A stretch of 35,280 nucleotides of DNA from Phycisphaerae bacterium (GTDB lineage Bacteria > Planctomycetota > Phycisphaerae > UBA1845 > PWPN01): positions 1 to 35,280 of the forward strand of contig JAAYDF010000174.1 in the NCBI GenBank assembly GCA_012729395.1, read 5' to 3'. Below are positions 5,536-24,727 of the stretch, piece after piece. The stretch's first letter is position 1, and the number at the start of each line of letters is the position of its first letter. The notes beneath the pieces were generated by a model, which ran no database searches, had not been told where the DNA came from, and saw only the letters and a list, made by a program, of their open reading frames with translations. The position numbers were made by a program, and so were the translations under genes.

Positions 5536-5630
5536 GCGAGCTCCGGGCTCGATGCCGGAGTCCGATGGGCAACGGGATGCAGAATGGTCGATCCCATGCT
5601 TGCTCCTCGGATACGTTGCATGCGAAAACC

Positions 5631-5653
5631 CTGCTCACAGAGCAGTGCCACAC
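5631..5653 (-). repeat. 23-bp dispersed palindromic repeat, copy 1
   Basis: The minus strand of this 23-bp segment is identical to 24614-24636. Its core CTGCTCTGTGAGCAG is a perfect 6-bp inverted repeat around TGT. In both places it lies on the far side of a 117-bp REPIN-like element. Confidence 0.6.
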
Positions 5654-5704: not shown

Positions 5705-5762
5705 GCGGCGGCCAGGTCATTCACCGCGTGCTGCGGCGGCCAGGCCGTTCACGGCGCGTGCT
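5705..5762. repeat. two-copy tandem repeat, about 29 bp
   Basis: Units 5705-5732 and 5733-5762 both begin GCGGCGGCCAGG and end GCGTGCT, with two extra bases and a few changes in the second. The second unit runs into the first bases of the 117-bp element. Confidence 0.55.
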
Positions 5763-5877
5763 AGAGCATTTCACGCAATGGCGTAGCGGCCGCCGCCCCT
5801 GGTGGCCCGCGAACTCGCAAGGAACACGCCGGTCGCCACGGGGGGCGACCGCTACGATGGGGCGTGAATCGCTCTAG
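5761..5877 (-). repeat. 117-bp REPIN-like element, copy 1
   Basis: This segment is the reverse complement of 24482-24598 with a single mismatch in 117 bases. The ends are imperfect inverted repeats (26 of 34 bases) beginning CTAGAGC. Each half contains a GTAG tetranucleotide followed by a hairpin (for example CGGTCGCC, six-base loop, GGCGACCG), the layout of two inverted REP units. The TAG stop of the TPR gene (5874-5876) lies inside its terminal CTAG. Confidence 0.8.
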
Positions 5878-7556
5878 TGTCGGCTCATCGCGACGCGAGC
5901 TCGGTCCGCTTGGGCGCTGTTGGGAGCCATCTCGCAGATGCGTTGCCACATGGCTCGAGCCCGATCGATCATCCCGATGTTCTCCAGGGCCAAGGCAAGG
6001 TGCTCGCGGAAATCGATGTTCTGCGGGTTGCCAGCCACGGCCTGCTCGAAGTGCTCGACCGCCATGGCGAACCGCTGCTTGTCGGCGAACATCGTTGCCA
6101 GCCGGTAGTGCAGATCCAGAAACTCCGGGTTCAGTTTGAGTGCCTGCTGTAGCGTCTCGATGGCGTCATCGGTGCGGCCAGTCTCATAGAGCGCCAACCC
6201 GAGCTTGATCAAGGCCTTGACGTAGACCGGGTTGATGTCCACCGCCCGCTGGAAATGAACGACGGCCTCCTCGATGCGTCCGCGTTGTCTGAGCAACAAC
6301 CCAAGTCGGTAATGGATATCAGGATGATTGGGGTGATCCTCGGCCGCCTGACGATGACGTTCGATCTGCTGTTCAATGAGATCATCGAGGCGATCTTCCG
6401 GTGGGCCGGCCACTTCCGGCGGAGCGACGCCCAGATAGCGGTCCACCTCCTGCTGCACGCCGCACTTGAGATGAAGCCTGGCAATCTCGGTGTACAGGAG
6501 CGTGCTGTTGGGCTCGATGCTCGACGCCAGGTCGAGATTCGAGAGGGCCTCGGGCTCGCGGCCGGCCTCGAACTGCGCCACCCCCAGGCCCACATATCCG
6601 GTCAGCAGGCGATCATTAAGCTCGATGGCCCTCGCGAAGTGAGTGGCCGCGTCGGTGTACCGGCCGGCCCGCAAATGCTGCGTCCCGATTTTAACCCAGG
6701 CTTCAAGATAGCCGGGGTGCAGGTCGACCGCCTTGCGGTAGGCCTGCAGGGCGCCTTCCTCGTTTCCGGCCCGGGCGTACAGGTCGCCGAGGCGGACGAG
6801 GTTGTCGGCGGAATCCGGCTGCCGCTGAATCTGGATGTGCATTTGCTCGATGGCTTCGCGAAGCAAGCCCGCCTGCTCGTACGTGTCTACCAGGTCGGTG
6901 CGTACCTGCCAGTTGTCCGGCTCGATCGTCAGGGCATTCTCGAAGCTGCGGATGGCGGAATCGGGGTCCTCGTTCCGAAGGTACAGGTTGCCCAGGGTCA
7001 GATGGAGATCCACGTCGCACGGATCGTCCACCAGCATCTCCTCGTACTGGATGATCGCGTCCGCGAGCCTGTTCGTCAGCACGAAGATGGCCGCCAATCG
7101 CTCCCGAGCATTCTGCATACCCGGGCAATCCTCGATGGCCCGTTCATAGGCGACGATCGCCCCATCGAGGCATCCCTGCTTCTCATGACAGAAGCCGAGC
7201 CCGAACTGGATGACTGCGTCTCGGGGGTTCAGTGCGGCCGCGGCGAGTAACTGGGCCGACGCCTCATCGAGAAGCCCCAGATCTTCGCAGCAACAAGCCG
7301 CGGCGACGCGGGCCAGCACGCACGACGGACTTTGCCGAACGGCCTCGAGAAACGCTTCGCGTGCCCGACTGGGGTTCCCCTCGGCCATATAGACCGAACC
7401 GAGGTCCAGATACAGGTCTACCTGGCCCGGCGTCTGCTCCAGAAGATCGTTCAGCGTCCGGCGGTCATGGCACACCTCTCGCCTGATGCGCTCGGCAAAC
7501 GCGTCGGACAGCTTGCCGATCCAACCCCTCCCAAGCGTCTCCAGCAGGTACGACAT
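5874..7556 (-). CDS. TPR-repeat protein, 560 aa
   Basis: Almost the whole protein is tetratricopeptide repeats, helical 34-residue units with the usual small residues and Pro at the unit ends. Examples are DLYLDLGSVYMAEGNPSRAR near residue 50, LHLTLGNLYLRNEDPDSAI near 180, and the C-terminal HYRLGLLLRQRGRIEEAVVH and LHYRLATMFADKQRFAMAVE. I estimate at least ten units. There is no signal peptide or membrane segment, so it is probably a cytoplasmic protein-interaction scaffold; the partner is unknown. Start at 7556 has an AGAGGGA ribosome site, and it follows the other TPR gene by 10 bases, so the two form an operon. Its stop codon is inside the REPIN-like element at 5761-5877, so the insertion may have set or changed the last codons. 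Confidence 0.85.
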   Translation of the reverse strand: MSYLLETLGRGWIGKLSDAFAERIRREVCHDRRTLNDLLEQTPGQVDLYLDLGSVYMAEGNPSRAREAFLEAVRQSPSCVLARVAAACCCEDLGLLDEASAQLLAAAALNPRDAVIQFGLGFCHEKQGCLDGAIVAYERAIEDCPGMQNARERLAAIFVLTNRLADAIIQYEEMLVDDPCDVDLHLTLGNLYLRNEDPDSAIRSFENALTIEPDNWQVRTDLVDTYEQAGLLREAIEQMHIQIQRQPDSADNLVRLGDLYARAGNEEGALQAYRKAVDLHPGYLEAWVKIGTQHLRAGRYTDAATHFARAIELNDRLLTGYVGLGVAQFEAGREPEALSNLDLASSIEPNSTLLYTEIARLHLKCGVQQEVDRYLGVAPPEVAGPPEDRLDDLIEQQIERHRQAAEDHPNHPDIHYRLGLLLRQRGRIEEAVVHFQRAVDINPVYVKALIKLGLALYETGRTDDAIETLQQALKLNPEFLDLHYRLATMFADKQRFAMAVEHFEQAVAGNPQNIDFREHLALALENIGMIDRARAMWQRICEMAPNSAQADRARVAMSRH

Positions 7557-14111: not shown

Positions 14112-14245
14112 GCGAGCCCGGGACGCAAGTCCCCGGGTGTGAAAGCGAGCGATAACAAGCGCGCGAGCCAAGGACGCAAGTCCCCGGACGTGAAAGCGAG
14201 CGATAACACACACGCGAGCCGGGGACGCAAGTCCCCGGGTGCACA
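14112..14245. repeat. 51-bp tandem repeat, 2.6 copies, with GCAA-loop hairpins
   Basis: Units begin with GCGAGCC at 14112, 14163 and 14214, an exact 51-base period; the third is cut off after about 32 bases. Each contains GACGCAAGTCC; in the third, CCGGGGAC-GCAA-GTCCCCGG is a perfect 8-bp stem with a GNRA tetraloop, and in the others the stem is shorter or bulged. The array fills most of the gap between leuS and the RDD gene (13903-14273). The remaining DNA (about 14040-14110) is full of short words such as GTACTGAGTACC and shows no gene. Confidence 0.75.
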
Positions 14246-14273
14246 GCGTTCTTGTGCAAACCCTGGACGGGTT

Positions 14274-24451: not shown

Positions 24452-24481
24452 CACCCCCACGGTGTCGGGTGCATCTTCTGT

Positions 24482-24598
24482 CTAGAGCGATTCACGCCCC
24501 ATCGTAGCGGTCGCCCCCCGTGGCGACCGGCGTATTCCTTGCGAGTTCGCGGGCCACCAGGGGCGGCGGCCGCTACGCCATTGCGTGAAATGCTCTAG
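24482..24598 (+). repeat. 117-bp REPIN-like element, copy 2
   Basis: Same element as 5761-5877 in opposite orientation, 116 of 117 bases identical. Left unit: GTAG (24504-24507), CGGTCGCC, loop CCCCGT, GGCGACCG (to 24529). Right unit, read on the minus strand: GTAG (24576-24573) followed by CGGCCGCC, a six-base loop and GGTGGCCCG, a stem with one bulge and one G-T pair. Between them GCGAGTTCGC is a short palindrome. It begins 30 bases after the histidine kinase stop. Confidence 0.8.
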
Positions 24599-24613
24599 GG
24601 GCAGGCCTCATCC

Positions 24614-24636
24614 GTGTGGCACTGCTCTGTGAGCAG
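24614..24636 (+). repeat. 23-bp dispersed palindromic repeat, copy 2
   Basis: Identical to the minus strand of 5631-5653. The core CTGCTCTGTGAGCAG is extended here to a perfect 8-bp stem (CACTGCTC, GAGCAGTG). It lies 15 bases beyond the 117-bp element. Confidence 0.6.
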
Positions 24637-24727
24637 TGTGGATGCACCCCCATCTTGTCGCGCTCTGCGTGCCCGGGGTTGACACACCCCCGCCGTCGGC
24701 CGGATGATCGCGAACCGGAGGTCGCCC

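Follow-up and report, generated by a model that had tools for sequence, protein, structure and literature searches.

The 111-bp element and its parts

The window, by which we mean the whole stretch of 35,280 nucleotides analysed here, contains two copies of a 117-nt sequence in opposite orientations, at positions 24482-24598 (+) and 5761-5877 (-). As an earlier sequence-only reading had observed, the two are nearly the same (99% identity, one difference). Their flanks are unrelated. Both copies start with CTAGAGC and end with GCTCTAG, the terminal inverted repeats that the reading had described. The repeat is real over its 117 nucleotides, but its outermost bases are host DNA, and the mobile unit is 111 bp long: it spans 24485-24595 (+) in copy 1 and 5764-5874 (-) in copy 2. 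Each unit is bounded by a duplicated TA, at 24483-24484 and 24596-24597 (+) for copy 1 and at 5875-5876 and 5762-5763 (-) for copy 2. Among the copies compared, GAGC and GCTC are respectively the first and the last conserved bases of the element.

The ends of the element have the form GAGCRNTTCACG-N7-GTAGCG and are in inverted orientation. On the left, an outer terminal repeat (GAGCGATTCACG, 24485-24496, +) is followed after 7 nt by GTAGCG (24504-24509, +), which is at once an inner terminal motif and the 5' tag of a REP. This left REP (24504-24529, +) consists of GTAG followed by CGGTCGCC-CCCCGT-GGCGACCG, i.e., a perfect 8-bp stem with a 6-nt loop. The right REP is inverted (24550-24576, -) and consists of GTAG and CGGCCGCC..., with an imperfect hairpin (GTAGCGGCCGCCGCCCCTGGTGGCCCG) that has stand-alone relatives (e.g., L173). 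The right outer terminal repeat (GAGCATTTCACG) lies at 24584-24595 (-). Each half thus has GTAG and a hairpin, with the halves inverted, as initially described, and the tips of the element, with their TA duplication, sit 19 bp outside the REPs. The element is short, non-coding, and multi-copy. As single-stranded DNA it folds far better than dinucleotide shuffles (z of -6.2 for one strand and -4.9 for the other). A search of the window against Rfam gave no matches. Elsewhere in the window, positions 14112-14264 hold three tandem 51-nt units, the second and third sharing 86% and 63% identity with the first unit.

Dispersed copies, target sites and empty sites

The host genome is a draft of 5.74 Mb in 370 contigs. 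It contains about 60 dispersed copies of the element, with matches in at least 40 places, and three of the genomic matches are 100% identical over 116-117 nt. A longer form, of 135 bp between the TAs, has an extended first loop and breaks up the assembly at a number of contig ends. Junctions between terminal repeat and hairpin (TIR-GTAGCGG, up to 3 mismatches) occur 133 times in this genome, against 5 times with a reversed-pattern control. The element is hence not confined to the window, and identity between copies stops at its ends without extending into the flanks. A pair of near-identical copies in one window might be taken for a simple 117-bp segmental duplication within the contig; the numerous dispersed places and unrelated flanks refute this explanation, to which we attach practically no probability.

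Ten of the 19 copies with near-intact ends are flanked by TA on both sides, a dinucleotide that makes up 1.9% of those in the window. The other nine mostly have TA on one side and a changed second side. We rejected a four-base CTAG duplication, as expected of an IS5-like target, because the base just beyond the TA is not the same in the two flanks; the duplication is thus TA.

The comparison of occupied and empty sites revealed exact insertion at a single TA in two families of host repeats. Copy 1 interrupts a copy of repeat B (24467-24639, +), which reads GGGTGCATCTTCTGTC-TA-[element]-TA-GGGGCAGGCCTCATCCG, whereas two other copies of this repeat (L067 and L061) are continuous and have a single TA. 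Similarly, repeat C is occupied at one locus (L003, GTACGTGTATA-[element]-TAGCGTCCGGGGACTGGCTC) and uninterrupted at another (L217, GTACGTGTTTAGCGTCCAGGGACTGGCTC). Together with the comparison of copies, these empty sites define the unit as 24485-24595, with the TA outside. At a further locus (L016/L077), the element occupies the same position of repeat B as window copy 1 in the opposite orientation, and therefore at least two of the insertions were independent. Repeat B (core GCACTGCTCTGTGAGCAGTG) is itself abundant, with 63 genomic matches at no more than one mismatch and none in the control; in the window it is found at 24467-24482 and 24598-24639, with a fragment near 5628-5653, and it forms tandem units in contig C188. 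Repeat C (GTACGTGTTTAGCGTCCGGGGACTGGCTCTTTTTTGCCGACC) has about 20 dispersed copies in the host genome, including those at L217 and L003.

For at least seven copies, the target TA is part of a stop codon: together with the G that begins the element, it forms the TAG closing a long open frame. This is the case of window copy 2, whose TA at 5875-5876 belongs to the stop of a TPR gene (5874-7556, -), and of the copies at L008, L019, L043, L045, L046, and in the L200 frame. The TPR assignment was checked against Pfam, and the L200 frame resembles the C-terminus of FeoB by eye. Selection against insertions inside genes is enough to explain this placement.

The ends are those of IS630-family elements

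The sequence-only reading had proposed a MITE as an alternative to a REPIN, and the ends and TA duplication are indeed those of an IS630-family insertion sequence. A terminal-repeat comparison revealed that GAGCATTTCACG is identical to the ends of IS630 elements in two genomes of the same family as the host, G009 and G008, and the left outer repeat (GAGCGATTCACG) has the motif of these ends as well. In G009, TAGAGCATTTCACG forms each end of a complete insertion sequence of some 1 kb (L125:705-1706), which is flanked by TA on both sides and whose products match HTH_Tnp_IS630, DDE_3 (116 bits), and the NCBIfam IS630 model NF033545 (123 bits). Two frames overlap in this element, and the A8 run that joins them (L125 1075-1092) suggests a programmed frameshift. 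In G008, a reading frame starting MTYSMDLRERVV follows the shared 27-nt end, and the opposite end comes after a DDE_3 C-terminus; this IS630 partner is found in about 20 places, multi-copy but fragmented.

The host genome itself has a relic (L137), in which CAGAGCATTTCACG-ATTGAAT-GTAGCGATACCCG adjoins IS630 C-terminal codons. We found no other trace of the transposase, and no intact copy, in the assembled host genome, whose 370 contigs could have lost one. A match to PF13358 in this genome (C216, L122) was discarded, as it is an unrelated fragment without the ends of the MITE.

The IS630 ends in the host relic and in G008, G016, G032, and G104 share one arrangement: the outer motif, seven bases, and GTAGC(G). 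This pattern is not universal, since the autonomous copy of G009 has GTATC at that place. The MITE has the same spacing, which was exactly 7 nt in all 16 matches of the genome collection when 4-9 nt were allowed in the search. From this conserved spacing, we infer that the IS630 transposase has a putative inner binding site at GTAGCG. The REP tag GTAGCGG falls on the very bases of this inner motif. Given the IS630-type ends, the TA duplication, and the empty sites, we conclude that this unit transposed as an IS630-type MITE.

The interior is a REP doublet

The pattern of the left hairpin, GTAGCGGYCGCC-N-GGCGRCCG, has at least 230 matches in the host genome and none in the control. Among the first 30 matches in list order, 25 lack an IS630 end. 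Such REPs occur as singles, as tandem arrays (C37), and as clean doublets joined by different linkers (L161, L162), and REPs without IS630 ends are also present in G010 and G058.

A RAYT gene with the same GTAG-hairpin in its flanks had been proposed as something to look for, and we identified a RAYT-like frame of 178 codons (L094, in contig C138) with exact copies of the left REP on both sides, in inverted orientation. Its product is a homologue of E. coli TnpAREP (PDB 4er8), with HUH and W-Q...R motifs and an aligned catalytic tyrosine. However, it scores 75.4 bits against the RAYT model NF047646, just under the cut-off of 80, and it has S at the position usually occupied by N in RAYTs (YIVNSP), and its activity is uncertain for these two reasons. 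By the criteria of PMC2817692 and PMC8266576, the left hairpin is, as judged from sequence, a REP with its own RAYT. The other Y1 transposases of the host genome were set aside as cognate RAYTs, since only L094 is flanked by the exact REP. Two of them encode IS200-like TnpA proteins and are flanked by other GTAG families: L084 (C67:53261-53605), with a Y---Q--HH motif, is found amid a third GTAG-hairpin family (GTAGCCACGGGTGCAGTGAGCCGAAGGCGAACGAAACCCGTGG), and L085 (C312) lies between direct copies of a REP doublet with adjoining sequence (1163-1263 and 2261-2360).

At L014-L018, L020-L024, L166, L167, and L181, the REPs have a loop lengthened by about 22-24 bases (ACTTCGGCGAGCTCAGCCGAGC). These are found both embedded in the MITE and alone, with different stems, as if the insert had spread independently. 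Their presence in both settings suggests an exchange of sequence between the two populations. In the MITE copies L025 and L026, an extra palindrome upstream of the REP (ATCTTGACAATTGTCAAGAAGGTAG; enlarged in L025) separates it from the IS630 end.

These data bear on the first proposal made for this locus, that the 117-bp unit is a REPIN. The REP doublet was correctly recognised, and its left REP is that which flanks the RAYT-like gene. If the whole unit were moved by a RAYT as single-stranded DNA, with the CTAGAGC ends as an extension of the REPIN, one would understand the doublet layout, the perfect left hairpin, and the RAYT-like gene between identical REPs. Yet, movement of the 117-bp unit by a RAYT is not supported, because the unit has boundaries and a duplication typical of a DDE transposase: the copies end in GAGC...GCTC with TA duplicated, and removing the element with one TA restores the empty sites exactly. 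Furthermore, most genomic REPs lack IS630-type ends, and these same ends bound IS630 transposase genes. This reading is already largely refuted and, in our opinion, very improbable.

One could also regard the stand-alone REPs as decayed remnants of the MITE, which would then be the source of the REP population. The hairpin sequences common to both, and the several MITE copies that lack one end (L012, L028), go in this direction. On the other hand, remnants do not account well for tandem arrays, for clean doublets with other linkers, for the REPs around the RAYT-like gene, or for REPs without IS630 ends in G010 and G058. We consider this origin of the REPs unlikely.

Distribution in other genomes

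When 85,000 species genomes were screened for an IS630 end joined to a REP, the Phycisphaerae MAG CSMAG_386 was the only one to match (the host genome may have been left out of this set). This MAG, G053 in our collection, belongs to another family of the same order and has 67 junctions with the same architecture as the host element. Its stems, of the GGCCGAC type, agree with those of the REPs that stand alone in the same MAG. Elsewhere among 397 genomes covering the class, the junction is uncommon. There is one clear chimera in G364, with a third REP flavour, and at least three REP-like chimeras in G009; the cases outside the host genome and CSMAG_386 are weaker. The junction matches in G312, G104, and G011 were not retained, being IS630 ends or REP-free elements with IS630 ends rather than clear REP chimeras.

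The right arm of the element (GAGCATTTCAC..AATGG.GTAGCG) is similar in the host genome and in G053. This similarity in two families leads us to favour, on the available sequences, common descent of the chimeras with replacement of the REP.

The occurrence of GTAGCG within the ends of several IS630 elements, and the presence in G312 of REP-free elements with IS630 ends and GTAGCGG, raise the question of whether the element is a plain IS630 MITE, with inner palindromes that resemble REPs only through a chance GTAGCG in the IS630 end. However, the left REP is letter-identical to the REP flanking the RAYT-like gene, and REPs without IS630 ends dominate the sample of 30. Loop-extended REPs are found in MITEs as well as standing alone with another stem. 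Finally, two genomes have different stems, each matching the stand-alone REPs of its own genome. Such a coincidence of motifs seems quite unlikely to us.

An IS630/REP chimera

We conclude that the element is very probably a non-autonomous MITE of the IS630/Tc1-mariner type that encloses a REP doublet. Since the interior is a REP doublet and the ends are of the IS630 type, the REPIN and the MITE ideas were both right, and the element is a chimera. An IS630-family transposase acting in trans would bind the bipartite ends, excise the unit, and paste it at a TA. The chimera would have arisen when a REP doublet was joined to an IS630 end, or replaced the inside of such an end, with both recognition signals being kept; this fusion would have been possible because the inner IS630 motif and the REP tag share GTAGCG. 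The interior could instead have turned REP-like within the MITE, rather than having been captured from REPs. More speculatively, the internal REPs might remain open to nicking by the RAYT, and the MITE and the stand-alone populations might exchange REP sequence.

Relation to known systems

IS630-family MITEs include Correia/NEMIS in Neisseria and RUP in Streptococcus pneumoniae (named in PMC2817692 and PMC3733652). Like them, the element described here is about 100 bp long, non-coding, and dispersed, with IS630-type inverted ends, TA duplication, and a strong hairpin. Unlike them, its interior is a RAYT-type REP doublet, and the REP tag GTAGCGG shares bases with its inner end motif. It shares with REPINs and BIMEs associated with RAYTs (Bertels and Rainey 2011, PMC3116915; Nunvar 2010, PMC2817692) the two inverted GTAG-hairpins with a linker, the high copy number, and a RAYT-like gene between identical REPs. 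It differs from these in that the doublet lies within IS630 ends, and in having boundaries and a TA duplication of the DDE transposase type.

The statement in the sequence-only reading that no planctomycete family of this kind was known is outdated, as GTAG REPs and RAYTs, with many tyrosine transposases, were reported in Planctomycetes (R. baltica) in 2013 (Di Nocera 2013, PMC3733652). Our data are in line with that work regarding the presence of GTAG REPs and tyrosine transposases in this phylum. The same study described TIRtrons; around RAYT-like genes, some of its TIRs combine degenerate GTAG units with stem-loops of an unrelated kind. Those TIRs, unlike the ones described here, flank tyrosine transposase genes, and none of those we considered is described as an IS630 end that surrounds a REPIN with TA duplication. 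We found no report of an IS630/REPIN chimera in the open-access literature searched. Hence, the GTAG REPs of Planctomycetes are already published, whereas their chimera with IS630 is unreported in that literature.

The way in which REPs spread is poorly understood (PMC8266576). Here, by way of a motif of six bases held in common, REPs are found within a unit that a very different transposase has dispersed, and two unrelated DNA-moving enzymes may be able to read this one small element. We tentatively raise the possibility that the element is doubly recognised, with GTAGCG serving as the inner half of the site of the IS630 transposase and as the guide tag of the RAYT. REPs would then have gained a double-stranded, TA-targeted transposition besides their spread by RAYTs, and this coupling would have arisen or persisted in more than one family of planctomycetes, with the local REP flavour swapped in. 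A chimera built on a shared motif provides a concrete and testable route for the dissemination of REPs.
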